DNA from: Prorocentrum cordatum
Lineage: Eukaryota; Sar; Dinophyceae; Prorocentrales; Prorocentraceae
Assembly: GCA_963575745.1 (NCBI GenBank)
Contig: CAUYUJ010015749.1
Location: 58,501 to 122,500 of the forward strand
Length of the DNA: 64,000 bases
Direction of reading: 5' to 3'
The position numbers were made by a program, and so were the translations under genes. Each line of letters starts with the position of its first letter. Position 1 is the stretch's first letter. Below, piece after piece: positions 40,141 to 63,254 of this stretch. Under the pieces are notes generated by a model. That model was given only the letters and a program-made list of their open reading frames with translations. It had not been told where the DNA came from and made no database searches.

Positions 40141-40263
40141 GGAGGATGGCGGGCCGCCTCGGTGTTGCAGGTGAAGGCCTAGACTGGGCTCGGGACTTGC
40201 TGCCGCTGCCATCTGGGCGCTGCCTGGCTGATCTCCTCGAGGGACTCTCGCCAGCTGGCCTGG

Positions 40264-42225: not shown

Positions 42226-43609
42226 AACCCCGCCGATGGTCCTTCAAGGCGGTTCGAGCCTCGCCGTTTGCGGGGCGATGGAGCGCCGTCGGCTCGCGGC
42301 GGCCGCACCGAGTGCGCAGCCGCTGCCCGCTCCGAGTGCGCCGTCGAGCGGCCATGGGCGGAAGCGCCGCCTGGGCTCGCCGGGCCGCGCGCGCTCGGGT
42401 CAAGCGAGGGCCAGCGCCAGACGCCCCTTGCCCGCTGCCGCGACCCGGAGGTCGACAGCCTTGCCGTGGCACCGCCTCCTGGGCTCGAGCGTGTCAGGAC
42501 TGGAGCTGGAGGCGGTGAGGCCCTCTACCCAGCAGAACTACTTGAAGTGCCTCAGTGGCCTTTGCAACTGGCTCGGAGTGGAGACGCTGCCCAGCTGGAG
42601 CGCGCTGGAGTGGGACGACGCACTGCTGCAGCACCTGAACGACGAGTTCGCGCAGGGAGCGCGGCCGAACAGGGCTGCGAAGCTGTTGTCGGCGGTGCTC
42701 TGGGCGCGACCGGCGCTGGGGCGGCCCCTGCGGGTGGCGCTGCCGAGGAGCAGCCGGGCGCTGCTGGGCTGGAAGCGCAAGCGGCCTGGCCACTCTCGGC
42801 CGCCGCTCCCTTGGCTGGTGCTCTGCGGCGTGCTGGAGATCCTGCTGCTGAAGCGGGAGGTGGCGATGGCGTGCGCTCTCTGCCTCATGTTCCACTGCTA
42901 CCTTCGGCCCGGAGAGCTCCCGGCGATGAAGGCGTTTCAGCTGGTGCCGCCGGCTGCAGGGCTGCAGGGCGGGTTTCGCTGGTGGACGCTGTTGCTTCAC
43001 CCAGAGGAGCTGCTGGTGCCCAGCAAGGCTGGCGAGCTGGACGACTCGCCGCCGCTGGACGCGCCCGTGCTCCAGTGGCTTACGCCCGCGCTCAGGGATC
43101 TGAAGGCGCGGTCGGAGCCTCGCGAGCCGCTGTGGAGATTCGGCTACGCGCAGCTGCGCGAGGAGCTCGAGGCCGCGCTGGCGGCGCTGGGACTTCAAAG
43201 CCTCGGTGCCACGCCGTATTGCATACGGCACGGAGGAGCAAGCCACGATCGAATCGTGGGAAGGAGGTCGCTCGAGGAGGTGGCCAAGAGAGGCAGGTGG
43301 CGAGCTCGCCTGTCCGTGCGGAGGTACGAGAAGCACGGCCGCCTGGCGCTGCAAGTGGCGAAGGTGCCGCCCGTGGTGCAGGAGCGGCTGCGACTCAGCA
43401 CGCAGAGGCTGCCGCAGCTGTTCGCCAATTGCTCAACGCGACGCGCCACAGAGTGCGCCTGGGGCGAGAGAGGGTCGCCGTCGAGGTCTTCGCTGGGCCA
43501 GGCCGCCTCGCCTCGGCGCTTCGTGCCAGAGGAATCCCCGCGGTCGAGTGGGACATCATTCGAGGAGCGCAGTTTGATCTCACCAAGGCGTCCAGTGTCG
43601 AAGTTCTGA
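42179..43609 (+). CDS. Tyrosine recombinase of the PAT/DIRS element
   Basis: The 476-aa frame has a basic Ala/Pro/Arg-rich leader, then a core-binding helix region (VRPSTQQNYLKCLSGLCNWL, about residue 121 on). The catalytic domain follows, with the first Arg in CYLRPGELPAM (residue 243) and the Arg-His box TPYCIRHGGASHD (Arg 350). It ends with VAKRGRWRARLSV and the nucleophilic Tyr in RRYEKHGRLAL (residue 383). This is the complete R..RH..W..Y set of DIRS-type recombinases, which integrate circular element DNA without target duplication. It overlaps the end of RT-RNase H and the whole upstream part of the methyltransferase frame in a different frame, as in DIRS-1. The start is uncertain. Confidence 0.85.
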   Translation: MHRLVVCQCDGFLQSETPPMVLQGGSSLAVCGAMERRRLAAAAPSAQPLPAPSAPSSGHGRKRRLGSPGRARSGQARASARRPLPAAATRRSTALPWHRLLGSSVSGLELEAVRPSTQQNYLKCLSGLCNWLGVETLPSWSALEWDDALLQHLNDEFAQGARPNRAAKLLSAVLWARPALGRPLRVALPRSSRALLGWKRKRPGHSRPPLPWLVLCGVLEILLLKREVAMACALCLMFHCYLRPGELPAMKAFQLVPPAAGLQGGFRWWTLLLHPEELLVPSKAGELDDSPPLDAPVLQWLTPALRDLKARSEPREPLWRFGYAQLREELEAALAALGLQSLGATPYCIRHGGASHDRIVGRRSLEEVAKRGRWRARLSVRRYEKHGRLALQVAKVPPVVQERLRLSTQRLPQLFANCSTRRATECAWGERGSPSRSSLGQAASPRRFVPEESPRSSGTSFEERSLISPRRPVSKF

Positions 43610-44214
43610 AAGGATGGATTCTCAGCGGTGATGTGAGCATCTTGTGGTTAGGAACCCCATGCACTTCTTTCTCGTTGGCTTGTGGGTACACCAAGTCTGG
43701 GCCAGGACCTTTGAGGTCCAGGGAGTTTCCTCTTGGACTGCCGGGCCTCTCGGGCCCCGATCAAATTCGAGTGCAGTTGGGTAACCGTTTGATGCGTGTC
43801 TCTGTTGTGCTTGCTAAGCTAGCTCACACTAGAGGGATCCCTGGAGAGCTCGAGAATCCCGCTTTTTCTCGTCTTTGGCTGTGTCCGCCTGTGCTAGGTC
43901 TCGGTAGGCTTCCCAATGCTCACGATGTTTTCACGGACTTTTGTATGTGGGGTGAGCCGTGGCGTAAACGAACACGGCTTCGCGTCTGGCACGTTTCTTC
44001 CGGGCTTCTTGGGCGAAAGTGCCACGGTAAAGGCATTTGTGAGAGGTCCCAGAGGCCTCACCAAGTGTTAGAGGGCAAGGCCCCCGGTGGCCAGTTTTGG
44101 ACTGCAGTAGCACAGCCTTACCCAAAGGCGCTGTGCAAGAACCTTGCCAAGTCTCTTGTAGATGCGTCAAATAATCGTAGGCTCTCTCGGTTGTGGGACA
44201 TTTGTAAATGCTAG
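42268..44214 (+). CDS. Methyltransferase-like domain of the PAT/DIRS element
   Basis: Only the last 258 or so codons (43441-44214) look like a real domain. RERVAVEVFAGPGRLASALR fits an AdoMet-binding motif I, and IPAVEWDI an acidic motif II. LGTPCTSFSLACG has the Pro-Cys of cytosine-C5 motif IV (Cys codon 43660), and GELENPAFSRLW resembles the ENV/ENP motif VI. The frame is the same one as RT-RNase H and is open from 40264 to 44214 except for TGA 42223. The protein may therefore be the C-terminus of an RT-RH-MT polyprotein, with the recombinase overprinted. DIRS and PAT elements are known to carry methylase domains, and cytosine methyltransferases have been reported in dinoflagellate retrotransposons. 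The exact methylated base is not settled by sequence. Confidence 0.65.
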   Translation: MRGDGAPSARGGRTECAAAARSECAVERPWAEAPPGLAGPRALGSSEGQRQTPLARCRDPEVDSLAVAPPPGLERVRTGAGGGEALYPAELLEVPQWPLQLARSGDAAQLERAGVGRRTAAAPERRVRAGSAAEQGCEAVVGGALGATGAGAAPAGGAAEEQPGAAGLEAQAAWPLSAAAPLAGALRRAGDPAAEAGGGDGVRSLPHVPLLPSARRAPGDEGVSAGAAGCRAAGRVSLVDAVASPRGAAGAQQGWRAGRLAAAGRARAPVAYARAQGSEGAVGASRAAVEIRLRAAARGARGRAGGAGTSKPRCHAVLHTARRSKPRSNRGKEVARGGGQERQVASSPVRAEVREARPPGAASGEGAARGAGAAATQHAEAAAAVRQLLNATRHRVRLGRERVAVEVFAGPGRLASALRARGIPAVEWDIIRGAQFDLTKASSVEVLKGWILSGDVSILWLGTPCTSFSLACGYTKSGPGPLRSREFPLGLPGLSGPDQIRVQLGNRLMRVSVVLAKLAHTRGIPGELENPAFSRLWLCPPVLGLGRLPNAHDVFTDFCMWGEPWRKRTRLRVWHVSSGLLGRKCHGKGICERSQRPHQVLEGKAPGGQFWTAVAQPYPKALCKNLAKSLVDASNNRRLSRLWDICKC

Positions 44215-48069: not shown

Positions 48070-48275
48070 GGGGCGGCGGATGACGGAAAGAGTGAGGCAC
48101 GAGTGATGACGTTGAGTTGGGGCGAAGTCTTCTAGGGAGGGGTCCAGGGGGAGGGGCGAGGCCCGGACACAATGGTCTAATGGCCCGTTTCCCTTGTATT
48201 TTTTCTAGTGAAGCGGCTCCCGGGCGGCTCCCTTGGCCCGTTTCTTTGTATTTTTTCTGGTGAAGCGGCCCAAGG
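48070..48275. repeat. Spacer with a direct duplication of about 48 bp
   Basis: TGGCCCGTTTCCCTTGTATT plus TTTTCTAGTGAAGCGGCTCC recurs immediately as TGGCCCGTTTCTTTGTATTT plus TTCTGGTGAAGCGG. The block stands between oppositely oriented array segments. Confidence 0.75.
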
Positions 48276-48945
48276 GCCCCAAGACGGCTCAAGAGGGCCC
48301 CAAGACAGCCCCAGGAGAGCTTCAGATGGCCGCTAGGATGTCCAAGAGAGTCTCGAGACGGTCCCAGAGGCCCTCAAGAGGGCCCCCAAGAGGGCCTCAG
48401 AAAGCCAAAAACTTTGATTTCCCCATGGTTTTTGCAGGTTTTTCAGGTTCTCCCCTTTTCCGTTCCAGAAGGGCCCCAGACGGCCCAAGAGGCCCCAAAG
48501 ATCGTCCCAAGACAGCCCCAGAGGCGCCCAACATTTGCCCAAAACGGTCCAAGAGGGCCCCCAGCCGGGCCCAAGACGGCCCAGAGGCCTCAAATATCGT
48601 CCCAAGACGGTCCCTGAGGCGCTCCAAACGGGCCCAAAACGGTCCAAGAGGGCCCCCAGACGGGCCCAAGACGGCCTAAGAGGCCACATATCATCCCAAG
48701 ACGGCCCCAGAGGCGCCCCAAAGGGGCCCAAGAAGCCCAAGGTGGCCCCCAGACGGCCCCAATACGGCCAAGAGAGGGCCCCCCAGAGGGGCGCCCGAGG
48801 AGACGGCCTAAGAGGCCACATATCATCCCAAGACGGCCCCAGAGGCGCCCCAAAGGGGCCCAAGAAGCCCAAGGTGGCCCCCAGACGGCCCCAATACGGC
48901 CAAGAGGGCCCCGAGGGCCCTAAGAGAGCCCAAGAGGGCCCCAAT
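48244..48945 (-). repeat. Array-family segment in inverse orientation
   Basis: CCCCAAGACGGC and CCAAGAGGGCCCC words are the reverse complement of the main array. An internal direct duplication of about 117 bp (AGACGGCC.TAAGAGGCCACA, at 48670 and 48810) is near-identical. Confidence 0.8.
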
Positions 48946-49515
48946 AGGAGGAGGAGGAGGAGGAGGAGGAGGAGGAGGAGGAGGAGGAGGAGGAGGAGGA
49001 GGCGGGGGAGGAGGGTGAGGAGGAGGAGGAGGAGGAGGGAGGGAGGAGGATACGAGGAAGGGCAAGGGAGAGAGCAGGGAGGTAGAAGGAGGAAGGGGGA
49101 GGAAGATGAGGAGAAGGAGGAGGAGGAGGAGGATGGAGGAGGAGGGAAAAGGAGGAGATGGAGGAGGAGGAGAGGAGGAGGAGGAGGAGGGAGGAGGGAG
49201 GAGAGAGACGGAGGAGGCGGAGGAGGAGGAGGAGGCGGAGCGGGAGGCGGAGGAGGAGGAGGAGGAGGAGGAGGAGGGGAGGAGGGGAAGGAGAAAGAGG
49301 AGGAGGAGAAGGAGGAGGAGGAGGTGGAGGAGGAGGAGGAGGGTGAGGAGGCGAAGGAAGGGAGGAAGGAGGAGGAGGAGGAAGAAGAGGATGAGGAGGA
49401 GGAGGACAGGGAGGAAGAGGGGGAGGAGGAGGAGGCGGAGGCGGAGGCGGAGGCGGAGGAGGAGGAGGAGGAGGCGGAGGAGGAGGAGGAGGAGGAGGAG
49501 GAGGAGGAGGAGGAG
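48946..49515. repeat. (GGA)n microsatellite
   Basis: About 570 bp of GGA/GAG triplets with GGC interruptions. No gene. Confidence 0.95.
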
Positions 49516-50646
49516 TTCTTGACACCAAGGCCCAGCCAAGGCTCAGGAACGTGCGGCAACGTAACAATGTCTGAACACTAGGGCTCCCAACGGAGACGGC
49601 GACGCAACAAGGCCTCCACACCAAGGCTCCCAAGAGCGAAGGGTGCCATGAGCTATCTCGGGCAAGTGCCTGAGGCGCTCTTTCCGTTTCCGTGCCGGCC
49701 CAGGTCTAGTGGCCCTCGGCCTATCCCGCCACCGTGCTTGGGTGGTGGGTCAGAGGCCTCTGGATGTTGGTTGGTATCTCGTGGTTGGCCTCTTCGGGTC
49801 CTCTGGGAGGCAGTTTTGAGGCCCCCCCGGGCCTCTTGCGAAGTTGTGGGGCTTCTTGGGGCCACGTTGGGGCCTCTTGGGGGCCTCATTGGGGCCTCTT
49901 GGAACTTTCGGGGGGCCTCTTGGGAGCTTCTTGGGGCCTCTTGGGGGCCTCTTGGGAGCTTCTTGGGGCGTGAGGGGGGGTAGTCGAGTTCGGGACCCCC
50001 TCGGGGGCCACGGTCCTCGTGAGGGGTGTCAAAACATGCCCTCCCCAGAGACACGCGGGCAGCCGCGACAAGCCCTAGGAGCCCCCCCGGAAAACGGAGC
50101 ACAACTCGTCCCCCCCCCTCCTCCCCCCCTTCCCTGGCAGAGCCCCCCCGGCCCCCCCCCCAGCAGAGCTGAAGCTCAGGCTGTAGGCTGTAGGCTGTAG
50201 CTGAGGCTTTTTCAAACTCACTCGCCGGATCGGCGGAGTTCAAAGCGTGCAGATGTCATTCAGGATAAATTGTCCAAGGTCTAGGAGCAGCTGGGAGGTC
50301 TTGTGTCAATGTTGAGCTGCACTGTGTCAATGTTGAGCTACACTGTCAATGCCTCGCTCTCCTGGGGCTTTGCTGTCTTCCTGCTTGTTAACGTTTGTCA
50401 CGTGTGCGGAGCCACACTGTCACTGCCGCGCTTTCCTGTGGCTTTGCTGCGTTCCTGCTCGCAACGCACACCGCCAGAGGCGGCGGAGAGCTTGAGAGAT
50501 CCACCTACCAAGAGGGAGCGGATTCTTGGCACGCGCATTCGATTCAGCCGCTGGCCGGTCAGGTGGCGGGTCGGCACACAGCACGCCGCAGCAGAGCACG
50601 GGCTGATGCCCCGAATATGCATCGGCTCGGGCGCCAGGGCTGCGGG
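49516..50646. other. Array-family fragment and unique sequence, no gene
   Basis: TTCTTGGGGCCTCTTGGGGG words at 49790-49975 are a plus-strand array fragment. A GTGAGGGGTGTCAAAACATG box at 50010 is shared with the 45.3-45.9 kb insertion. The short tandem GTCAATGTTGAGCTGCACTG lies at 50305-50350. The rest is unrecognised. Confidence 0.5.
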
Positions 50647-51204
50647 GAAGGGAGGAGGGGGAGGGAGGAGGAGGAGGAGGAGGAGGAGGAGGAGGAGGAG
50701 GAGGAGGAGGGAGGCGGAGGTAGAGGAGGCGGAGGAGGAGGAGGAGGGAGGAGGAGGAGGAGGAGGAGGAGGAAGGAGGAGGAGGAGGGAGGAGGAGGAG
50801 GAGGAGGAGGAGGAGGAGGAGGAGGAGGAGGAGGAGGAGGAGGAGGAGGAGGAGGAGGAGGAGGAGGAGGAGGAGGAGGTGGAGGAGGAGGAGGAGGAGG
50901 AGGAGGGGAGGAGGAGGAGGAGGAGGAGGAGGAGGAGGAGGAGGAGGAGGAGGAGGAGGAGGAGGAGGAGGAGGAGGGTGGAGGAGGAGGAGGAGGAGGA
51001 GGAGGAGGAGGAGGAGGAGAGGGAGGAGGAGGAGGAGGAGGAGGAGGAGGAGGAGGAGAGGAGGAGGAGGAGGAGGAGGAGAGGAGGAGGAGGAGGAGGA
51101 GGAGAGGAGAGGGAGGAGAGGGAGGAGAGGGAGGAGAGGGAGGAGAGGGAGGAGGAGGGAGGGAGGAGGGGGAGGGGGAGGGAGGAGGGAGGAGGAGAGG
51201 CAGG
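50647..51204. repeat. Long (GGA)n microsatellite abutting a LINE
   Basis: About 550 bp of GGA triplets. The poly-Glu/Arg/Gly stretch runs in frame into the RT, which makes an apparent 648-aa ORF (50303-52249). The repeat part is not LINE protein. Confidence 0.95.
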
Positions 51205-52137
51205 AGGAGCACTTGGAGCAATTCTGGGCGGTCGCCTTATCGCACTGGCAAAGAACGACGGCGGAGTCAGACCCATTGCTTGTGGTAGCGTCGTGCGCCG
51301 GATCGTTGCCAAGGCGGCGTGCAAGGTCCTGAAGGCCGACCTCGCCAGAGCAGCTGGCCCGCGGCAGTTTGGGGTCGGCAAGCCGGCTGGCGCCGAACGC
51401 GTGCAGAAGATATTGAGTTCTCTGGCAGAGCAGCGCCCAGACTCCGCGATCCTGAGCTTCGACGCTGCCAACGCTTTTAATACAACGTCGAGGGGTGCAA
51501 TCCGGCAGGCACTGGCCGCGGAAGTCCCCCCCCTGGCGCGGCTGGCTGGCCCGTGGTACGCCCGTGGGTCCACGCACACCTACTGGGACGAGGGCGGCGC
51601 GGCGTGGTCCGTCCAGGCGGACCGAGGGGTGGACCAAGGATGCCCCTTGAGTCCTGCCGTGTTTGCGATTGCCCTGGCACCGCGGCTGGAGAAGTTCGAT
51701 CGCAGGCTCTGGGAGCGGGACCCGCATGCAAAGGTGCTTGCGTATCTGGACGACGTGTACGTGGTCACTGATGCGGCCAATGCCCCGTTTGCTGTGGAGG
51801 TGTTGCGGCAGCTGGCGGCTTCTCTTACGATGGAGCTGCGCGTCGATAAGACCAAGCTGTGGACTCTCCGCCCAGATGCGGCCGTGCCCGTGGAGGTCGC
51901 TCGATTCCGGGTGCCGTCTCTGACCTGCCTGGGTTCCGTCTTGCCGCTCGTGCAGCGAGGCGATGGCGACGACGACGCGTTGGACCCCTCGCGGGCCCCG
52001 ATCCTGCAGGACAGCCCTGGCTCAGCAGCCCTAGCCGCCTTGCAGGCGTATGTGGGCCGACTGCGGGAGCTCCGGGCCGCGGGGCTCAGTGCGCAAGCGC
52101 GGCTGGTGCTCTTTCGGACTTTCGTCAACGGCGCCAC
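51205..52137 (+). CDS. LINE reverse transcriptase, 5' part (interrupted by the 10-kb element)
   Basis: The frame reads LGAILGGRLIALAKNDGGVR (RT block 0-1), PIACGSVVRRIVAKA, and FDAANAFNTTSRGAI (motif A, Asp codon 51461). GVDQGCPLSPAVFAIALAP (motif B), VLAYLDDVYVV (motif C, both Asp codons 51749-51754) and VDKTKLWTL follow. It is an intact non-LTR RT up to the thumb (AQARLVLFRTFVNGAT), where the TIR element begins at 52138. The N-terminus is truncated at (GGA)n, so no DNA-binding fingers are seen. Its continuation is at 62199-63390 in the same frame. Confidence 0.9.
52133..52137 (+). repeat. Target-site duplication GCCAC (left copy)
   Basis: GCCAC immediately precedes the left TIR. The same five bases follow the right TIR at 62199-62203, read in the same codon phase (GCC AC-). 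Confidence 0.8.
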
Positions 52138-52185
52138 TCCTGCCTTAACAAGATACACTCGCCGTTCGGGCGGGTGGATTTACCT
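52138..52185 (+). repeat. Left terminal inverted repeat
   Basis: TCCTGCCTT then AACAAGATACACTCGCCGTT then CGGGCGGGTGGATTTACC. It matches the reverse complement of 62151-62198, with the 20-bp core identical and about 80% identity over 48 bp. Read through in frame it encodes NKIHSP. Confidence 0.9.
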
Positions 52186-53219
52186 AGCGAAGCAATTTCG
52201 CCAACATCAGACGGTAATGCGCGTCCGAAAGGGCTGCGTGGATCCGTAAGAAAAAGGAGGAGGACCAGGAGGACGAGGAGGGGCGAAAGAATACGGATGA
52301 GGAGGAAAGGGAAGCCGACGGCGACGATAAGGATAACCCATGGACCCATGAATGAGGAGGGTGGGCAGCAGTGTGATCGCGAGGAGTAGCAGGGAAGACG
52401 AACCACGGTGAGGGGGGAGGGTGCTCATGATGCCGAAGTAGGTCTAGGCGATATCTTGACGTTGCGTCTTTGTTCATGGATGGGGCGTTCTCGGGTGCCA
52501 GGCATGCAACCAACAAAAAAACGGCTGGTCGCACATTGGGCGCCTACAACAACATGCCACTAACAATCACCAAGCAAACGGCATGCAACTAGCACACTAG
52601 CATACACCATGCAACTAGCAAACGGCATGCAACTAGCAAACAACATCCAACACGCAACTAGCAAACAACAAGCAAACGACATGCAATTAGCAAACAACAA
52701 GCAAACCTACAACATGCAACACAAAAGGAAACGGCATGCAACTAACAAACAGCAGCAACAACTACCACGCCACCAAACACACGACACGCAACGTCAACAC
52801 CATTCGCACTCTAGGAACGTATCCGTGGTGTTGTAGAGGTGGATGTTGGCAGATTTTCGGAGGGGCGGTCTTCACGCTTCTGGCGCGCGTTGCCATTTAG
52901 TTTTGATGCGCTTGCGTTGGGGCCCCATATGCGTTGTTCAGTCCGTGATGTTCCTGGTTGATGTTTGATTTGATCTAGGTTCTTATGGCCTCGTTTTTTG
53001 TAGAAGAGGGGTGAGCCAGCACAAACCAATTACACCAGGTGAAATCGGCAACCCATGGGCTCGTGGCTCTCTGGAGGACCCCATGCGCGTGGAGGGTCAA
53101 CTGACCCCTTTCTCAGAATGCAAAGCCAGCACGATGCCCCCCTGAACCATCCAGTTTACCAGGCGGCCCTGGCATTCGCAGTTGCGTCGCCGACGCAACT
53201 GCGAATGGGATCCCTTGTT
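52186..53219. repeat. Transposon left arm with AACAAGCAAACGGCATGCAA-type minisatellite
   Basis: Irregular GCATGCAACTAGCAAACAAC units occupy about 52550-52750. The rest is unique without a convincing ORF. The Gln/Asn-rich frame at 52609-52836 is repeat translation. A perfect dyad of 16-bp arms, ATTCGCAGTTGCGTCG...CGAATGGGA, lies at 53174-53206. Confidence 0.7.
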
Positions 53220-53240
53220 TCCGTAGCCATTTTGGCCAAG
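53220..53240 (+). other. Relict dinoflagellate spliced-leader sequence
   Basis: TCCGTAGCCATTTTGGCCAAG differs from the conserved 22-nt dinoflagellate SL (starting DCCGTAG, ending GGCTCAAG) by loss of a single T. It lies 63 bases before the ATG at 53304, where a trans-spliced 5' end would lie. It indicates that the downstream gene was once reverse-transcribed from a mature mRNA. Confidence 0.85.
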
Positions 53241-53303
53241 GGGAGTTTGCTTCCGCCAGGCGTGTTCTCGCGCCGTGTCCCCACGGCGAACCTGAGTACC
53301 AAC

Positions 53304-54419
53304 ATGGTCCTCTCGAAGTTCGCCACGCCCTCCAAAGATAAGCAGGCGTCGACCAAGAAACGCTCGGCAACATCCGGCAGCCCGTCAGCTAGCAGCCCTG
53401 GCGGTGCAAAAGTTACCTGGGCCATGGTTGTCAAAGAGAAAACGAAATTCGACAAGCAGTGCGCTCAAGATTCCTCCACATCGAAGCTGCCGCAAGTATT
53501 TGCCACCGTGTGCATGGAGCTGCTGGCATCGCCAGCAAAGTTGTTGCCGACACTTCACGCCGTGCAGGGTGATGATATGCGCCGTGGGCCCATTCTCAAG
53601 AAGTCCAAGTCGAGCAAGGCCGTCGACGACGACATCGACGAGCTGTGGGCCGACATGGAGAAACTCAGCCAGTTGCCAAAATACTGGGTGTGGGAAGTGG
53701 TCCATGCGAAAGATCCGAGCTATTTCAGCAGCACCGCAATCAAGATTATCGATAAGAAACACAGGGACAACTTCAGGAGGCTCCTCGAATGTCTTACTGG
53801 ATTGAGGTCTACATACAAAATCTTCGAGGAGATGAAAAACAAGAAGCTCACCGCCCGCGTCGTTGAAGTCCTGTACGATGCGTTTGGTTCTCCCTGGCCG
53901 TCGTTTCGAGTTCTATTTCCTAACCCTGCTGATTTGACTTGGAAGTTTCTCGGGGTGTACAGGTACGGCGAGCCAAACGAGAACGGCAAGATTTCGGACT
54001 TGATTCATATTTCTGGTGCTCGTGCGACGGTGCCGAAGAACATGACTGTCAACTCAGAATGGTATTTCACGAACAACTGGAGCGACAGGTTTGCGCAGGG
54101 GACCGACGGGGATTCGGTCTTCACTTGTTTCACCCGATTCAGTGGCGAGGCTGACCAGCCGTGGTATCAGTTCGCCGAAAGCCCATCGAGCCAGTTGAAG
54201 CACTACGTCCAGAAGGTCAGCACTGATCTCGACGAGGAGTTTGCGAAGACCTTGTCCACCGACGTGAAGATTTCAGATACTATCAAGGAGGTACAGAAGG
54301 ACTCGAGGCGCAGGCACGGGAAGGGCCCCCCTGAGTACGCCATGCCTGCTAGTCTTGAGGCTCGGCCAACGAGCTTCACTGCGCCAGAGCAGACTGGCCA
54401 TCAGTGTGAGCTGGATTGA
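53304..54419 (+). CDS. 371-aa transposon-borne protein, unknown family
   Basis: The start at 53304 is preferred over the upstream in-frame ATG at 53055 because the SL relic at 53220-53240 marks the mRNA 5' end. The N-terminus is basic and Ser/Lys-rich (SKDKQASTKKRSATSGS), like a nuclear localisation signal. The middle has an acidic patch (AVDDDIDELWADMEKLSQ) and a helical, charged segment (KHRDNFRRLLECLTGLR). A mixed region (FGSPWPSFRVLFPNPADLTW) follows, and the C-terminus is polar. No introns are visible in 1.1 kb, consistent with retrocopy origin, whereas its neighbour has three introns. No domain is recognised. It could be the DNA-binding accessory protein of the transposon or captured cargo. 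Confidence 0.7.
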   Translation: MVLSKFATPSKDKQASTKKRSATSGSPSASSPGGAKVTWAMVVKEKTKFDKQCAQDSSTSKLPQVFATVCMELLASPAKLLPTLHAVQGDDMRRGPILKKSKSSKAVDDDIDELWADMEKLSQLPKYWVWEVVHAKDPSYFSSTAIKIIDKKHRDNFRRLLECLTGLRSTYKIFEEMKNKKLTARVVEVLYDAFGSPWPSFRVLFPNPADLTWKFLGVYRYGEPNENGKISDLIHISGARATVPKNMTVNSEWYFTNNWSDRFAQGTDGDSVFTCFTRFSGEADQPWYQFAESPSSQLKHYVQKVSTDLDEEFAKTLSTDVKISDTIKEVQKDSRRRHGKGPPEYAMPASLEARPTSFTAPEQTGHQCELD

Positions 54420-55276
54420 GTCATTTCCCTCTTGCCCCAGCCCACCACCACTTCAAAGCCCAGGCTCACTGGGCGCTCTTTTGAGCAGCAGCTTTTCTTT
54501 GAATTTGAGCGGCGATAGAGCTGATGTGGTGTCTGTCACAGAGCTCTTGTGGCCTGGCTTCGAGGGCAATGCGAGAACGAAACTCCATCGGAAACCTACC
54601 CATATGTTTTCATTTGTTGCATGCTTCGTGCCCTCGAGGCCAGTGCACGATCCGATGTCCGCTCGGGTATCAGCGTTATGGCTTGCGAAAGCGTGGGGTT
54701 GCCATCAACGTTCAGACAAGATTTCCACATTGCGTATCCCATCGAGCCATCGAAGCATCGTTGATCGAGTTCTTGCTTGCTGCTGTTGCCGACGATTGTG
54801 AAGAGCGACGGTTGCGATCGGCGTCGGCGGCGACTTCGACGACGACGACGACGACGAGGACGACGACGATGACGTCGACGTCGACGCCGATCGCAATCGT
54901 CGCCCTTCTCCAGTCGATTGCCGTCGCCGACGCTGATCCTCCTCGTCGCCCACTTCGTCCCCCACCGTCTCGCCTTTCGTCGCTTGCACGTCAGCAGTCG
55001 AGGTCAGCGGGCAAGCTGGCAACCTCGCTCGCAGCGAGGCGGACGGCGTGCAAGGAGAGAACATAGATCCCCCATGTAAAAAGCCCCTCTCGCTGTCGGT
55101 TCGGAGGGGGTCTCGAGGGGGGCGAGCGACGGTGGGGGGAAGTTTGGGGGCGGCGGAGCTCCGCTCGGTTCTGCCCTCGCCCTTCCACCAACTCCCTCTT
55201 CCGTCATAGCAGCGCAGGCTCTTAGCGCAGCCCGTGCGCGTCGACCTCGAGGCGACCTCGGCTCAGTCGCCTGGCG
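54420..55276. other. Intergenic region with a triplet tract and hairpin
   Basis: A dyad of 22-bp arms (GCGACGGTTGCGATCGGCGT at about 54806 and its reverse complement ending at about 54905, one mismatch) encloses a short (GAC)n. There is no convincing ORF. The promoter of the next gene presumably lies here, but no motif is recognisable. Confidence 0.5.
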
Positions 55277-58200
55277 ATGGAGGTCGACGAGGGCGTCCTG
55301 GCCCCCCTGGGAGACCAGGGCGCGGGCGCTGCAGCGGGCGACGGTGACGGTGACATCGGCGACGGTGAGTCAGCGCCCCAGGCCGCCATTGCAGTCGGCG
55401 CGGCTGGCGATGCACACGGCGTGCAGGTGGCGCACAACGGCATCGTCGAGCTCTGGATCGACCCTGGCAAGAAGCATCACTATTTGAAGAATCAGCTGAC
55501 CCACGAGACCGTGAAGATACTGGCCCCACCAGCGGGCACGGATTATTGGGTCATTGATTTGAAGGACAACTACGCCTACATCGATAGCCCAGACGAGTCG
55601 CACTGGGTGATTCTGCTCCGGAACGAAATATCCATGCCAAAAAAAACCTGCCACCTGCTACCTGCCCAAAATCCATGCCCAAGTAAAGTTTGGAGGCGTT
55701 CCGTTTTCTGCCCGCCTGAGCAGGCGGGCAGAAAACGGAACGCCGTTCCAAAATTGGTCCGTCTGGCCCCCTTGAGCCAAAATGGCTTCAGCCAAAATCG
55801 CTACGGAAGAGACGGAGGAAGTGGCACCGACTGTTTTTTTGAACACTTCGGCCTACTGACCCTTAGGCAATCTTTTTTCGGTGGCATGTTTTTTCTGACC
55901 GTCTCTAGGTGACGGAGTTCTTCAAGCACAACGCCTTCGTGTCAGACCAGGGCCAGACGTTCGTCAAGTCCACGGACAGCGACTCCCCAGAGTGGATCGA
56001 GAATTTCTTAGGCATGCACAGGGTCGACGAGTTCGCTTTCGCACACCCCGCTGGGACGCAGACCACCAGGTACATGATGGTCGCTGTGTGGGAGAATGCT
56101 CAGTATGATTCGTCGGTGTGGATTTCTCTTTGGAGCGTGTTCGACATGCTTTGTCTCCATGTCAACGTGAGCGGGGGCTCGTGGTTCGCGAACCGTCGGG
56201 ACGCATGGGAGCGGTGCTTGTGCGCGTGGCAGCTTCGTCACCACCTTCGCCAGAGCAGCCCGTACGCGAACAAGAGAGCGGCACTGTCGAGTGAGGAGCT
56301 CGCGATGCGCATCCTGAAGTTCCCGTCGGTCAGCGTGGTCGGCATGATGTGCTTGATGATTCAGTGGGGGTCGGAGAATCAAAGTTCGCGCTTCAAGTCC
56401 GACACAGATCGCGCTTCGGCTAACGACTTGTTTGACAGCTTCGCTTACATGATCCAGAACGGCAGCATCAGGGTCAACGTCGACGGCTTCGCTTGGAGGT
56501 GCGGCCCCGACATTGCAGGCGTGCGGCCCATGGTCGTACTCATCAAGGCTGGAAGGTTTGAACGAAAGTCTTTCAACGCCGTTGTCGAGTCCTTCTTCAA
56601 TGAGTACGGTACGCCAGTGAGCTGGGAAGATGCTGGCGTCTGGGATAAGCGCGAGGAGGGCGAGGACTTCAAGCCGTCTGACGTCATTCAGAAGATCCTC
56701 ACTGGCAACAGGGACGCCAAGCTTGCAATGCAGCTCGTCTGGGGCCTAGGCAACCTCGTCGACGCGAAGATCGCCAAGGCCAAGGGCAAGGATGTCGAGC
56801 TGGCCCCCGACTTCAGGTACGATTTCTCGGACGATCTTGACGCTCAGCCCGACTCCAGCGTAGACGTTGCGGTATCTGGCAACCACGGCGCTGCGCAGGT
56901 GATCATGCGGTACCTCAAGGTCAGCAAGCGCACCATGATCGACAGCATGAACCTCGGTTTCGTCATGGACGCTTCCACGCCAGACCACCAGAAGAAGTTC
57001 TACGGCGCTGTGTTCAAGCCGAACAACACAGTGGCCATTTGCCCACCGCAGGTGTTGCGGGCAAGCTGGGATTCCCAGGTAGATCGGCGATCCTGATCCT
57101 GGTAGTTTCAGGGGGGGGGGGAGCTCCGGATATCCTTGGGTCCTCCGAGGCTCTGGCTCGAGACATTGGCACATCAAGGGGAACGTATGCCAGGAATATC
57201 CTGGTAAATTCAGGTATCGGATCCTGGTTCGTCGGGCTCCTTCTCCAGGTGGGGTCCCGCTTGGGTCTTAGGGGTCCGTTCGGTTCGATCGACAGTCTGG
57301 AAGTCGCGATTGCAGGGCAGCTGCGAGCGATCGGGATGCGACCGAGACAGACCCTCAGGTGAGCTCAGTCTACAGCGGCAGGCAGATGTACGACAGCGAG
57401 AGCACGGCATTGGCGGTGCAGACGTACGAGAATACCCACATCGAGCGGGCCAGGGAGCTTCTGGGCATCAAGTGCAACTCCTCTGAGTTGCCACGGATGG
57501 AAAAGGTCAAGCGCAGGTACAGATTGGACTCCTTCATGGCTGGGAAGGCTCTTCACAACATGCGCCTCGTGAGCGTCGGCGAGGGCCTTGGGGCAGTCAA
57601 GATCACATTAGAACAGTACCACCAGATGAAGGACTGCTACGATTGGAAGTGCGATCACTTGTGCTCCGACCAGGGCCCCGACATGAAGTGCCTGAAGTGG
57701 TTCTTACAGAGCTCGGAGGGCCTGTTCAATGTTGACGACGACGATGATCTGGCACACGGCATCGACAACGATTTCAACATAGCTGACAAGAAGTGCGGTC
57801 TGTGGGCATTTCGGAGGCTTCAGAGGTTGGCGAGGAACGCAATCTATGGCCCCTTCGACGAGGGCAGGAGGTTCAAGGAGTTAAAGGACATCGCGAAGGA
57901 GGTGAAGACGTTCGTCAGCCCTCTCAAGTGCCCGATATTTTGCGAGGCGTTGCCTGCCATCCTCGAGGAGATGGGAGAGCCCGCGCGCATTATGGAGAAT
58001 GGCATCGAGGAGGAGGCGTGGAATGGCATGACCGAAGCCGGCTTCGGCGAGGTGGCTGGCAGGAAGGACAACCCCGCCAGGTGGCTTGGCGACCATTATG
58101 CTTCTCGCATCGACCGCGATCAGTTCACGATGCGCGCCGTCTGCTTCTCTTACGCGGTCATGGTGCGCGAGCAGTCGAGCACGAAGAAGCTCGGAGTCAA

Positions 58201-60870
58201 GATGAAGGAGCTGTACAGCGAACCGAACCAGCACGGGGGCAACGACCAGGCCGTGAGCATGAAGTCGGTGGCCGCCGAGCTGAAGCGCGTGAGGATGGCC
58301 ACGCGGGACCAAGTGGAGGTTGCGATCGTCTACTACAACAACAAGCAGAACAAGAACATCGACAGGGCGACATTCGCCATCCGCGAGCCGTGGGCTCAAT
58401 GGCATAGCCACAACAATTGGCACCTCAGGGATCTCACGAACGTCACGGACTGGGAGGTGGACCAAATCGTCAACGGGAAGCTCCTCAAAGTTTTTGTGGA
58501 ATCAATGTCTGTACCGTTCGATGGCAAGGGGATGATGGCTTACCTCGGCTTCGCTGTGGATCACAGCCATGTCAACGTGAACGAAGTGTCCGCGTCCCAC
58601 CCGCTTCTGAAGATCGAGGGTGACATGGCCGAGTTGATCGGCACTTACTCCCTCGTCCTGAACGCTTGTCGCTTCAAGAGGCTCTTCAAGTTGATGAGGG
58701 GCTGGCCCAAGCACTTGGTAGCGGCCCTCGGTGACCTCGCTTCCCAGGACAGGGTCTTCGCCCTCTTCAAGCAAGACTACGAGAACTGGAAGGCACTCGG
58801 CGACGACACGGTTGGCTTCAGGGCTCTGTCGGGGATTATGGTGTTGAGCGAGAGCCCATCATCCATTGGGCCCTCCCCCTGCGACAAACAATTTCCAGTT
58901 TTTGTTTCACGTGTGCTGTGAGTTTGGCAGCTGTCTGCAGTTATCTCCTCGGATTGCACTAACCTCCGATTCTCCGGCTCACACAACCTTCGATCCTCCA
59001 GAAGGATCGACGCCAGTTTGTTCAGGGGGGCCGTGCCGACCAGAGGTAGTAGGCCGAAGGGGGGGGGGTACGTGAAGGCCCCGAATACTGGTTTCCAAAA
59101 CACCCCCCCCCCCCTAAGGACCGTTAGGGGGGGGGTGAAACAGGGCCTTAAAACACGGACAAGGGCGCAGCGTCGATATGACTTCTAAGGGCCCCTGAAA
59201 TCACATCGCCCTCTGGCCGCGCAAGCGGCCTAAATCTCGAGCTCCCTGAGAATGCCCGTTAGCAAACACGCGCCCGCCCCGAGGCTCGCTTGAAGAAGAG
59301 CTCGCCTTTCAACCTCGTTCCAGTTCGGCAGCATCTCGGCATTCTTATCGAATCGGGGTTCCAGAGGACCTCGAGGTACATGGAGTTCCTCAGCGAGAAT
59401 CGGACGAGGCCACTGCTGTCCCAGATCGCCGAGGATTGCTTCTGCAGGTCAGCCAAGGACATTCAGCACGCCTTGGGCCAAGACCGAGGGATCGACAGAG
59501 ATTTCGCGAACTTGATCGTGAAGGATGTCGTCTCGAAAGTTCACCGCCACAAGGACATCAATTGGAAGTTCGAGCCGCTCGTCAGAAACCCCAGGATCCC
59601 CAAAGAGGTGTATCAGAACACTCCCGACGACGTGAAGGCGATCGGCCTCCAGAACATCATTGGCCCCAACCAGTCTCCGAAGTGGTCCAACCAGAGCGTT
59701 GCCAACGACTCCAAGCCGACTTTCGAGATGGACATGCTGGAGTTCTGCAGGGCCAACGGCGTCAACGTCTCCACCGCAGAGAAGCACTGGTACTGCGCCT
59801 TGGCGAAGCAGGGCAAGGTCGCCATCAAAATGAAGGGGTCCCCCGACTCGGACTACGGCATCGTCATGGGTGACATGTGCGGCATCGGCGTATTGATTGC
59901 CAAGCTCAAGCCTTTCAAATACAGGTCTGGGCGCGACTTCTACATGATCGACTTCGACGCTGCGGCCCCGCTCAAGATGACTTACGTATTTGATCCATCG
60001 GAGTGGGATGCCCTGCCTTTGTCCTGGACGTCACCGCTGATGCAGTTTGTCGCGGAGGGGGGGCGCAGCTTGCCAGGTGGCATCGAGAAGTACTGCATGA
60101 GGCTCGAACCAACTGGGCCTGCTGACAGTCTGTTGCGAGTGGCTGCCAAGAACGCCTTTTGGGATCTGGGATTGTCAGTGTTGAAGACATTCCACAAAGA
60201 CCTTTGCGTCGACCCCCCTGGCGGCCTCGACCTTTTCGAGACCTTGCAGGCGCTGGTGACGCACGTCTTGAAGCCGACAGATCTGGACCTGTGCGAAATC
60301 TTGCGGAAGCGTTGCTTCGTGAAGTTCGTCGGTGAGGACGGCTTGGTGGACATCCAGGGGGCGATGGATTGCATGACGAAGGAAGAGCAGGAGATGACGA
60401 GAGAGACGCTGTCTGAGAAGGACGCCCAGAAGCAGATCAGGAAGGAATACACCGCGAAGTTCAACGTCTACCGCAAGGAGGTGAAGGCGGTGCGCACTGC
60501 CGAGGCTGCCGATCAGAACCGCACCAAGCAGGAGCTGAAGAAGTGGAAGGGGCCAATCGAGCCGCCCAAGGACGGGACCGTGCACTCCGAGGCGAAGAAG
60601 TTCCTCCCACCTGGTGCGAGCCTGTGGAGGGGTCTCACAGGCACGGGCGCGTGGCACGTCCACATCCCCCCGCACTACACGTCCAAGACGTGGCTCGAGG
60701 CTGGCAGCTACGACAACGCGCTCAGGTTCGTCCTGGCCTTCGCCTGGAAGAAGTACCTCAAGAGCAAAGACCTCGACGACTCGCACTGCCCGATCAAGGG
60801 CCTGCTGAAGCACTACACGGACGAGGAGGAGCAGGCGGCCACCGCAGCCGCGAGCTCGTCGAGGGGATGA
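55277..60870 (+). CDS. Large spliced gene of the TIR element, candidate transposase (about 1506 aa)
   Basis: The proposed model is exons 55277-55624, 55909-57060, 57359-58792 and 59284-60870, with all introns in phase 0. Exon ends were chosen where protein-like sequence stops and noncoding sequence begins. Acceptors are CTCTAG|GTG, CCTCAG|GTG and CCGAG|GCT; donors are GA, GC (GCAAG) and GC. The exon 1 N-terminus is Gly/Asp/Ala-rich and low-complexity, followed by IVELWIDPGKKHHYL and YWVIDLKDNYAYIDSPDESH. Late exon 2 has LGFVMDASTPDHQKKF (Asp about 470). Exon 3 has CSDQGPDMKCLKW (Asp about 604) and LAHGIDNDFNIA (His about 633). This Asp...Asp...His pattern could be an RNase H-fold (DDE) core, but no third acid is assigned. 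From memory, SDQGPDM..HG.NND proteins are a multicopy unnamed dinoflagellate family; I cannot verify this. Exon 4 ends Lys/Glu-rich (QKQIRKEYTAKFNVYRKEVK) and AAAASSSRG. Confidence 0.7.
55695..55744. repeat. Perfect 24-bp palindrome with 2-nt loop
   Basis: The left arm GGCGTTCCGTTTTCTGCCCG plus CCTG and its exact complement are separated only by AG. It lies inside intron 1. Confidence 0.9.
55771..55806 (-). other. Tandem relict spliced leaders (full plus truncated)
   Basis: On the minus strand, 55806-55786 reads CCGTAGCGATTTTGGCTGAA plus G (two mismatches to the SL). It is followed without a gap by 55785-55771, CCATTTTGGCTCAAG, a perfect SL lacking its first six bases. Truncation falls at the internal AG of the SL, the known outcome of trans-splicing onto an older relic. 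Confidence 0.85.
57061..57358 (+). other. Intron 2 of the large gene (proposed, GC-AG)
   Basis: The donor GCAAGCTGG follows VLR, and the acceptor ACCCTCAG precedes GTG AGC. In-frame stops appear in the intron (TGA after GATC). Short dyads (GATCCTGATCCTGGTA) and a G run are inside. Phase 0. Confidence 0.65.
58793..59283 (+). other. Intron 3 of the large gene (proposed, GC-AG)
   Basis: The donor GCACTCGG follows YENWK, and the acceptor CCCCGAG precedes GCTCGC. It contains a C-run/G-run hairpin (about 59103-59137) in which CCCCCCCCC..TAA pairs with TTAGGGGGGGGG. Alternative donor positions a few codons later are possible because the frame stays open to 58921. Confidence 0.5.
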
Positions 60871-62150
60871 GTGACAGCTCGCTTCACTTTTTTTTCTGCC
60901 GTCGCAGCTCCTTCCCTCTTCGTTCTCGCACGAGGGTGCCTCCAGACATAGATACGCCCAGCAGGGGAGAAACCCCTTCCCTCGCCCCCGCCCCTTCTCT
61001 GGTGAAAACGGGGATGCGACGGCACGAGGTTCGACACAATACCTTGTATTGTGGACTATGCCGCCCGCCACTGCCCAGACATGACCACAGCTCCCAGCGT
61101 GACGTACGCTGGGAGCTAAGATTTCGATTAGGGTGGGCCGCACCGCCAGCATCGCATCTTCGATTGCTGGTACGTGTTGTGTTGGTTCATGGCTGGTAGT
61201 TGGATGCACTGGCCAGCAGCAGGACGCCTGGTGCATCGCTCGTGCAAGATGGGACTCGTCCGTAGTTCGACCGTAGGTGAACACATAACTTAGCATAGCA
61301 TGATGTTGGTGCGTGTAGCGCACGGCAGAGGGCAGAGGATGATATCGAATAGGAGGCGGGCCGTCGGGTCGCAACGAGGCCACGTGGGAGTTCAGAGGAG
61401 GGCGGATGGGGAATGAGGAGGGGTGGAGGGAAGGTACGGGGCACTAGATAATGAGGAATGTGGCGGCTGCGGGGGGGGAAGGTACGGGGCACTAGGAAAT
61501 GGGAGGGGTGAGGAGGGATGGAGGGGAGATGCGGGGAAGGTATGGGGAATGAGGAGGGGTGGAGGGAAGGTACGGTGCATTAGAAAAATGGGAATGAAGA
61601 GGGGTGGAGGGAAGGTACGGGCCTCTTAGCCATCATCCCTCGTGACCTTGTCGTTCCCTTGTCCATCTGAGCTTGCTCTCCCGCCCCCTCCCTCTCCCTC
61701 GCCCCTGCCCCCCTCCCTTCCTGGCCAATCTCTCCCGTCCCTCATCGCTCCCGCCTGTTTCCCACCAGTCGTGCCCCCACTTCCGCTTAGCCATTTTTGC
61801 TCAAACCCCTCAGCGCTGAGAAGTGCGTTGGCGCCCGAGTCCGACAGCTGCCTCAGCTGCGCTGGGGTACGCGCGTTGGCGTAGAAATTACCCTGGTAGC
61901 GGGGCTGTGCTGGCACTCTGCCAGATCTTGTCGCGGGCCATCTTCCCCCTGGATTTGTTTGATGGCCTCACGGCTGTTTTGAGCGGCTTTGGCGACTTGG
62001 CTGCGGTCGGGTTTCGGATCGGGCTTATGCCTGGGCCTTGGGGGCGTATGTTGCTGGTGTCGGGTTAGCTTTTGCGGCTGTGTGTTGCCCGTGTGGAGGG
62101 GGGCAAACGCTCGCTTCAAGCGGTGGCGCGGTGGTTTCAGACAGGCCTAT
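60871..62150. other. Transposon right arm: hairpins and minisatellite
   Basis: It includes the perfect hairpin AGCTCCCAGCGT-GACGT-ACGCTGGGAGCT at 61089-61117. It also includes a minisatellite of GGGAAGGTACGGGGCACTAG-type units (about 61390-61625) and pyrimidine-rich DNA at 61660-61760. A degenerate SL relic lies at 61782-61805. No convincing gene. Confidence 0.6.
61782..61805 (+). other. Degenerate spliced-leader relic
   Basis: TCCGCTTAGCCATTTTTGCT then CAAA aligns with the SL allowing a 2-base insertion and two mismatches. No ORF of note follows before the TIR. Confidence 0.5.
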
Positions 62151-62198
62151 TCGGGAATTTCACCCCCCCAACGGCGAGTGTATCTTGTTGAGGCAGTA
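62151..62198 (-). repeat. Right terminal inverted repeat
   Basis: The reverse complement reads TACTGCCTC, AACAAGATACACTCGCCGTT, GGGGGGGTGAAATTCCC and pairs with 52138-52185. Confidence 0.9.
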
Positions 62199-62203
62199 GC
62201 CAC
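62199..62203 (+). repeat. Target-site duplication GCCAC (right copy)
   Basis: Direct repeat of 52133-52137 at the outer edge of the right TIR. Confidence 0.8.
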
Positions 62204-63254
62204 GGTCCACTTGCAACGGGGCCTCCATGCTCCCCAGGCGTGGTGCGATTCCCTGGACGCCGAGGTCGTGGTCTTCGTCGAGGAGCTGCTTGGCGTGGCC
62301 CTGTCGGCAGCACAGCGGACGCAGATTTTCTTGCCTTTCCAGCTCGGAGGCTTGGGTCTGTGCTCCATGGGCGCCAGGAGGCACGCGGCGTACGTCGGCT
62401 CCTGGGAACAGTGCTTCAGCGAGGTCGCCAGCCACGTCGGGTGCACTTCCGCCAGCTGCTTCTTCAGGGGTGCCCCGCGGACGCGCGCCGCAATCCAGGC
62501 AGCGGAGGCCGGTTTGCGAGCGCAGGGCGTCGCCGGCGGCGTGCCCTGGGAACGGCGATTCGGCAGCACGGTCCCCCACCAGCAGAAGATGTGGACGAAG
62601 GCGGTTCACCAGGCTGCGCACACTGGCCTCCTCCAGTCCCTCCCAGAGGACGAGAGGGTCGATCTCCGTTCGGCCGGAGGCAAGGGCGCGGGGAGCTTCC
62701 TGCTGGCGCCTTCGCTGGAGGAGCATCTGATGCCGGACGCGCAGTTCATAGAGGCCGCTCGAATGCGCTTGCGGGCCGCCGTCCACGCGCCGGGGCGCAG
62801 GTGCCAGCATAAGTCAGGGGAGACCAGTGCCGTCTGCAACGAAGAGCTGGACGGCAAGGGCCGCCACGGGCGGATCTGCAAGACCGGCGGTGGCGCCGTT
62901 GCCCGGCACGACCGCGTCCGCGACTGGCTGGCGGCTTGGGTGGCCAAGGTCGCCGGACGGACTGCCGTGACGGAGCAGTTCGTGCCCCGGTGGGACCGGC
63001 GGGTTCTGGGCCCAGACGGGCGCGAGCGCATCGAGCGGGCAAAGCTTGACGTCGCGCTCGACAACGCCAGCGGTCGCCGGGTGTACGTGGACGCTGCCGT
63101 TGTGGAGGCTTCTTCACCAGATGGGCATGAGCGGCGGCAGCGGGCCGCCAGAGACGGGGCTGCGGCAGCAACGGCAGAGGACAGGAAGCGCGCGCGCTAT
63201 CCCTGGCCTGGCCTGACACCTTTTTGTAATCGAGTGTCTCGGCCGGGTCGGTGA
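62199..63254 (+). CDS. LINE 3' part: RT thumb, zinc knuckle and restriction-like endonuclease
   Basis: This continues the RT of 51205-52137. AWCDSLDAEVVVFVEELLG and QIFLPFQLGGLGLCSMGARR are post-RT motifs of RLE-type LINEs. Next comes a Cys/His cluster (RCQHKSGETSAVCNEEL, GRHGRICKTGGGAVARHD). The endonuclease follows with RDWLAAWVAKVAGR, ERAKLDVAL (Asp codon 63048), GRRVYVDAAVVEAS (Asp codon 63090) and KRARYPWPGLTPF. These fit the PD..D-x fold of R2/NeSL-like nucleases, which cut the insertion target. The frame is lost at a run of five T (63221-63225). Removing one T continues with the typical FVIECLGRVGESADGLLCSL ending, with a stop at 63388. This reads as a recent indel or an assembly error. 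Confidence 0.85.
   Translation, partial: ATVHLQRGLHAPQAWCDSLDAEVVVFVEELLGVALSAAQRTQIFLPFQLGGLGLCSMGARRHAAYVGSWEQCFSEVASHVGCTSASCFFRGAPRTRAAIQAAEAGLRAQGVAGGVPWERRFGSTVPHQQKMWTKAVHQAAHTGLLQSLPEDERVDLRSAGGKGAGSFLLAPSLEEHLMPDAQFIEAARMRLRAAVHAPGRRCQHKSGETSAVCNEELDGKGRHGRICKTGGGAVARHDRVRDWLAAWVAKVAGRTAVTEQFVPRWDRRVLGPDGRERIERAKLDVALDNASGRRVYVDAAVVEASSPDGHERRQRAARDGAAAATAEDRKRARYPWPGLTPFCNRVSRPGR

Follow-up and report, generated by a model that had tools for sequence, protein, structure and literature searches.

A two-gene, 10-kb DNA transposon of Prorocentrum cordatum, apparently undescribed, with base-exact ends and two deep clades

The genome of the dinoflagellate Prorocentrum cordatum harbours a mobile element that lies in a 64,000-nucleotide stretch of its DNA (hereafter the window; contig C14900, 58501-122500), where a 10,061-bp unit on the plus strand (52138-62198) interrupts a long interspersed nuclear element (LINE). 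We argue that this unit is an autonomous cut-and-paste DNA transposon of an undescribed superfamily, a reading to which we would assign a probability of roughly 0.8; a terminal-inverted-repeat DNA transposon as regards its kind, and a new lineage at the level of the superfamily, is the best account of the observations. The element has inserted at exact ends with a 5-bp target duplication and has spread repeatedly and recently, and the genome holds several subfamilies of different age, together with a deep second clade of the same layout. We call it undescribed because searches of protein families, protein databases and the literature were all empty, no description of such an element being found in the available portion of the open-licence PMC literature.

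Insertion at exact ends and recent spread

The left end of the element, TCCTGCCTTAACAAGATACACTCGCCGTT (52138-52166, plus strand), and its right end, TACTGCCTCAACAAGATACACTCGCCGTT as read on the minus strand (62170-62198), form terminal inverted repeats of about 29 bp that are identical at 27 of 29 positions; as agreement drops to 36/48 over 48 bp, these repeats are shorter than the 48 bp or so first proposed. Immediately outside lies GCCAC on both sides (52133-52137 and 62199-62203), and the length of 10,061 bp with GCCAC at both outer edges, as given in the original prediction, was recovered at the same coordinates. A 20-bp core of the repeats, AACAAGATACACTCGCCGTT, has two matches in the window at up to three mismatches, both at the ends of the element, against an expectation of 0.00 from shuffling; none of 100 shuffles of the window yielded a match, and a chance inverted repeat was rejected on these grounds.

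The interrupted LINE provides an independent view of the same boundaries. Once the element and one GCCAC are removed, its frame stays open over the junction, as had been predicted, running from the left part (50285-52132, plus strand, delimited stop to stop) into the right part (62204-63254, plus strand) in the same frame. The two halves had also been described as complementary, with reverse transcriptase on the left and endonuclease on the right: the former stands (RVT_1, Pfam E 1.8e-18), whilst the latter found no support in Pfam, where the best match of the right half had E 0.13 and belonged to another family. When the joined flanks (600 bases, with one GCCAC) were used as a query against the 4.13-Gb P. 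cordatum assembly, eight matches were returned, comprising the two window halves, five loci that cross the junction, and a second match on C19288 that covers the right half. The element is absent from all five junction-crossing loci. Four of these (97, 90, 89 and 95% identity) are uninterrupted and hold a single copy of the target, GCCAC in three and GCCGC in one; the fifth, the distant C14335 (L071; 64-70% identical), likewise contains no insert, and is not a clean empty site because some 34 bases are missing next to the junction. Related LINEs had been named beforehand as the place where either empty sites or further copies of the 10 kb would be seen, and with four clean empty sites and no LINE relative carrying the element, the idea that the 10 kb are natural LINE content was rejected. 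The second C19288 match (L070, C19288:563980-564380) is a tandem LINE repeat whose start lies no more than two bases from the insertion point. Two element-free LINE relatives (L070 and L071) are thus rearranged right where the element sits in the window, one by the start of a tandem repeat and the other by a gap of about 34 bases, which may be chance or the trace of a hot spot.

Across the assembly, the core occurs at 38 places with at most one mismatch, and the reversed pattern at none. Thirty of these pair up in opposed orientation, giving 15 pairs with a core-to-core distance of 10.04-10.11 kb, and because flanks are shared within three groups (C4867/C19877; C14223/C18318; C3427/C5009/C6974), the 15 places amount to 11 distinct sites. 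All 15 paired copies start with TCCTGCCTT and finish with GAGGCAGTA, the terminal nine bases on either side being identical throughout, and none continues beyond these ends; true ends lying further outward were therefore rejected. Exact 5-bp duplications flank the element at 10 of the 11 sites, namely GCCAC in the window and ACGCG, ACAAG, GGGTC, TACTA, GATGA, TCTTT, TTCTC, GTTAC and CAAGC elsewhere, of which GATGA sits within a simple repeat. Indeed, many copies with common ends and 5-bp duplications are what the original prediction had led us to expect, and two further outcomes that would have been damaging to it fared otherwise: no copy reaches past the ends, and the presence of colinear copies elsewhere in the assembly, on other contigs, argues against a scaffold join inside the element. 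Over the inner 1.45 kb of each end, the other 14 copies are 97.0-99.7% identical to the window copy, and the family is therefore young.

The remaining eight core places comprise three loci with a more diverged second end (C13854, C20966 and C12069), four single ends, and a match to the core only (C21598). The single ends (L042, L044, L046 and L048) match the window element for 144-271 bases before passing into unrelated DNA, and may be truncated, or may be non-autonomous elements with a second end that escaped recognition. No short-range opposed pair of ends occurs among the best candidates listed (up to three mismatches in 27); non-autonomous copies of the element may exist.

Older subfamilies and a second, deep clade

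Beyond the young family, clade 1 contains older subfamilies. C13854 (L039) is an element of about 9.86 kb with GGACC on both sides, whose protein pieces are 43-82% identical to those of the window; C20966 is flanked by CAAAG/CAAAT, and C12069, of about 7.6 kb, by AGGTT/AGGTC, so that the duplication is exact at one of these three sites and matches at 4/5 bp in the other two. C17211 retains both genes, with stops. Ratios of non-synonymous to synonymous substitution (dN/dS) were calculated against the window copy, excluding pieces below 50% identity or shorter than 40 residues. For gene 2, the large gene, they are 0.56 in C13854, 0.63 in C17211 and 0.72 in C12069, and for gene 1, the small gene upstream of it, 0.24, 0.44 and 0.41 in the same order; these values are consistent with purifying selection, its signal diluted by the decay of copies once they had inserted. 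C14522 (1.00 for gene 2, 2.21 for gene 1) is too similar to the window copy to be judged. In L039, synonymous divergence from the window is about 0.79 in gene 1 and about 0.25 in gene 2, as if subfamilies had swapped parts.

A protein search of the same genome brought to light a second clade, consisting of C348 and of three copies that are about 100% alike across the part searched, C16323, C13766 and C17824. Their gene 2 is 35-37% identical to that of the window over about 1000 residues, in stop-free frames of 1067-1074 residues, and the preceding exon is 31% identical in C16323 and 29.5% in C348. C1187 is 31-43% identical to the window gene 2, and further relatives (C14866, C16413, C558, C20058 and C20306) are stop-bearing or fragmented. 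C16323 has a homologue of gene 1 upstream of its gene 2, 38% identical over 346 residues, and the gene 1 region of C13766 is 99.7% identical to that of C16323. The clade-2 match is interrupted at the residue of intron 2, PPQ. Comparison of C16323 with C13766 fixed the ends of the clade-2 element as TCAAGCCCTCGATAG... and ...GGCCTCTA, giving a length of about 9.94 kb; the duplications of these two copies are exact (TTCTT and CGTAA), and with GGGAG at C17824, which lies within a G-rich repeat, exact 5-bp duplications are found at 3/3 sites.

Both clades thus share the gene pair, the size, the intron position, the TC/TA ends and the 5-bp duplication, with protein divergence of more than 60% and differing terminal sequences: family 1 ends in TCCTGCC/TACTGCC and clade 2 in TCAAGCC/TAGAGGC, with TC/TA common to both. 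The retention of this layout despite differing termini is our main evidence that both genes are part of the mobile unit. The original prediction had also expected both genes in the copies; gene 2 pieces are indeed present at 15/15 places, and gene 1 in the loci where it was checked, six others of clade 1 and two near-identical copies of clade 2.

The two genes and the candidate catalytic residues

The element carries its genes in tandem on the plus strand. Gene 1 (53304-54419) encodes the predicted protein of 371 residues, and gene 2 consists of four exons (55277-55606, 55909-57051, 57359-58840 and 59284-60870); it is spliced, as foreseen, with a product of 1513 residues in place of the estimated 1506 or so. 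GT/AG borders and the reading frame had given introns 1 and 2 before any homologue was seen, and the public gene model P0001 concurs; the third junction, joining GIM to ARLKK, was taken from P0001. A minus-strand frame of 422 residues (60175-61443), partly antisense to exon 4, was considered as a third gene and rejected, as a stop or a change of length breaks it in other copies, including the close C14522.

That neither protein can be assigned to a known transposase superfamily was borne out by family and structure searches, which returned no significant match. In Pfam, the best value for the gene 2 exon frames was E 0.13 with nothing for gene 1, and a search with P0001, the gene model P0002 and gene 1 gave no match; in NCBIfam, P0002 had a lone match at E 0.092; in PHROGs, P0001 reached E 0.28 and gene 1 E 0.028 (anti-repressor); and PDB searches gave none for gene 2 profiles and two matches at E 1.6-1.8 for gene 1. 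In a protein database of about 5.8 billion sequences, with about 8000 word-sharing candidates scored per search, the large protein matched only P0001 (98%, a 13-member cluster) and P0002 (88%), both from P. cordatum, among the scored candidates. A three-row profile of gene 2 again found only these two, and exon 3 by itself found nothing at E 0.1 within its length range. Neither a viral contig collection nor a prokaryote genome collection contained a relative by the peptide patterns used, and a viral origin and a bacterial relative were rejected on these results.

P0001 and P0002 bear no transposon name in the public protein record. The P. cordatum genome paper describes the filtering of gene models against transposon databases (PMC10666404), and the lack of a transposon name suggests that this filter missed them.

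The best-kept stretch of gene 2 runs from DxxCSDQGxD through DDD and IDNDF/INNDF. The FVMDAS/FIMDGS segment before it could be a strand pair, and the QxxExxFCR block after it looks helix-like. Within the alignment, D595 (57668-57670, exon 3, in CSDQGxD), D599 and E1035 (59431-59433, exon 4) show no variation in any row that reaches them (7, 7 and 9 rows, respectively), and D464 (56968-56970, exon 2) is D in the window, C14522, C19230, C16323 and C348, the five younger copies checked. Considering that D595 and E1035 are invariant and that D464 is kept in the younger copies, D464, D595 and E1035 form a possible DDE triad, as read from conservation. The D464 codon differs in the older copies checked: in L039, L040, L047, L055, L060 and L061, it encodes G in five copies from both clades (GGC for GAC) and V in the sixth, and random decay would not be expected to strike one codon every time.

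Intron 1 (55607-55908) has the direct repeat GGTGA on both sides and a perfect 24-bp hairpin at 55695-55744. In the genome paper, DNA-transposon-like elements with inverted repeats are reported from P. cordatum introns, and introners were sought by direct repeats of 3-5 nt and inverted repeats of 8-20 nt near the intron ends (PMC10666404); intron 1 fits this definition only in part because its hairpin is internal. The element as a whole resembles such introners as an inverted-repeat, DNA-transposon-like element of the same species, and differs in that introners are non-autonomous and act as introns, whereas the window element is a 10-kb unit with two genes. A 31-base arm occurs in opposite orientation upstream of gene 1 (53219-53249) and in intron 1 (55778-55808), 77% complementary and each time near a perfect hairpin; perhaps the two arms belong to a small repeat family.

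Elsewhere in the window, long simple repeats of GAG/GGA type (about 48264-49705, and 50650-51200) give rise on either strand to open frames that are very long but meaningless, and in 40183-44214 large open frames overlap whose text, as judged by eye, resembles reverse transcriptase and recombinase.

Mechanism, relatives and rival explanations

How might such an element move? The 1513-residue protein, as the putative transposase, would bind both ends and cut the element free, and the freed element would be joined to staggered target breaks 5 bp apart. Catalysis would probably rely on a DDE triad of D464, D595 and E1035, in which a very long insertion separates E1035 from D595. As it is kept beside the large protein in both clades, the 371-residue protein is a putative partner, which may take part in end binding or in the assembly of the complex, a role that we infer with less confidence. 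A bolder version, in which we place somewhat less than even trust, is that the element founds a eukaryotic DNA transposon superfamily that needs two proteins, a catalytic subunit of about 1.5 thousand residues, from a lineage that sequence connects with no known transposase, and an obligate 371-residue partner that has accompanied it since the clades split, in an arrangement analogous to RAG1/RAG2 yet independent of it, and seen only in Prorocentrum.

Several observations weigh against an autonomous transposon of an undescribed superfamily, or against parts of that reading. The duplication at C6780 is only 4 bp long (TATT, in register; one of the 11 sites), two of the exact duplications (C17360 and C17824) lie in simple repeats where a match by chance is easy, and gene 2 carries stops in several family-1 copies (the C3427 and C4867 groups, C4903, C16644 and C18318). 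The younger copies C20966 and C19230 show little or no constraint, as their respective dN/dS values are 0.80 and 0.83 in gene 2 and 0.56 and 1.15 in gene 1. For clade 2, the check that gene 1 accompanies gene 2 covered C16323 and the near-identical C13766 only. No significant sequence link to any transposase was found in Pfam, NCBIfam or the PDB chains, and AlphaFold2 models with a mean predicted local distance difference test score (pLDDT) of 29.1 (two rows) and 31.8 (24 rows) are too poor for a comparison of folds. As for the triad, the D464 position is G or V in six older copies checked, C348 has not kept the H of what might be a D(2)H motif, and as 190 columns of the alignment are invariant, the choice of residues is partly a matter of judgement.

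Among known systems, Transib and RAG elements make 5-bp target duplications and have ends starting with CAC, Ginger ends read TGT...ACA, and hAT elements duplicate 8 bp, the group of hAT, P, MULE and KDZ usually 8-9 bp. Could the element have escaped current profiles as a very diverged member of one of the known DDE superfamilies (Transib/RAG, hAT-like, KDZ, Ginger2 or another)? We consider this unlikely, if well worth weighing; it also overlaps with our preferred reading, as the element would still be an undescribed transposon that works in the same way, and only its superfamily would not be new. The 5-bp duplications are typical of Transib/RAG, two genes together with such duplications resemble RAG1/RAG2-like transposons, and the CSDQGxD block might correspond to the strand that bears the second D in an RNase H fold; on the other hand, single sequences and small profiles gave no significant match in Pfam, NCBIfam or the PDB chains, the TC.../...TA termini are neither the CAC of Transib/RAG nor the TGT...ACA of Ginger, and the two genes are in tandem, not convergent. 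The hAT, P, MULE and KDZ elements are alike in having inverted repeats, a target duplication and a large transposase-like protein, here with a candidate D, D and E and a long insertion; they differ in the length of the duplication (8-9 as opposed to 5 bp), no significant profile match was obtained, and Pfam searches of the element's proteins found no hAT transposase domain and no KDZ transposase domain. RAG-like elements such as ProtoRAG likewise carry two genes, one RAG1-like and one RAG2-like (PMC7204232), and the duplications of Ginger2 are 4-5 bp (PMC10045372), a likeness to the Ginger2/TDD group that is set against the lack of a significant integrase-core match in Pfam and PDB.

It is improbable that both genes are cargo and that the 10-kb unit is mobilised in trans by the transposase of another element. 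In favour of it, the link between either protein and the ends is a putative one, the public record gives the gene models no name, and the 422-residue minus-strand frame also lies inside the element; yet that frame is partly antisense to exon 4 and broken even in the close C14522, no short-range opposed ends were among the best candidates listed, and the two genes occur together in two clades whose termini differ and whose duplications are equal in length. An integrated virus-like or Polinton-like element is very improbable: the linear form, the length of 10 kb, the inverted repeats and the presence of two genes would suit it, but the family searches matched no polymerase, integrase, capsid or ATPase family, whereas Polintons have genes for a protein-primed DNA polymerase, an integrase and a capsid; the viral contigs held no relative by the peptide patterns used, and the 5-bp duplications contrast with the 6 bp given for Polinton (PMC10045372). 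Finally, an artefact of assembly or segmental duplication, to which the three groups with shared flanks that reduce 15 places to 11 sites might have pointed, is already refuted by 11 sites with different flanks and duplications of their own, and by the existence of empty sites.

Our reading of the element as an autonomous transposon of an undescribed superfamily bears on a wider gap. Dinoflagellates have huge genomes, and to our knowledge few of the transposases that mobilise their DNA elements, introners among them, have been identified. An element that is defined to the base, seems to have been active recently and has a conserved pair of genes in two deep clades makes the existence of an unrecognised transposase lineage directly testable, together with the idea that the small protein is a subunit essential to it.

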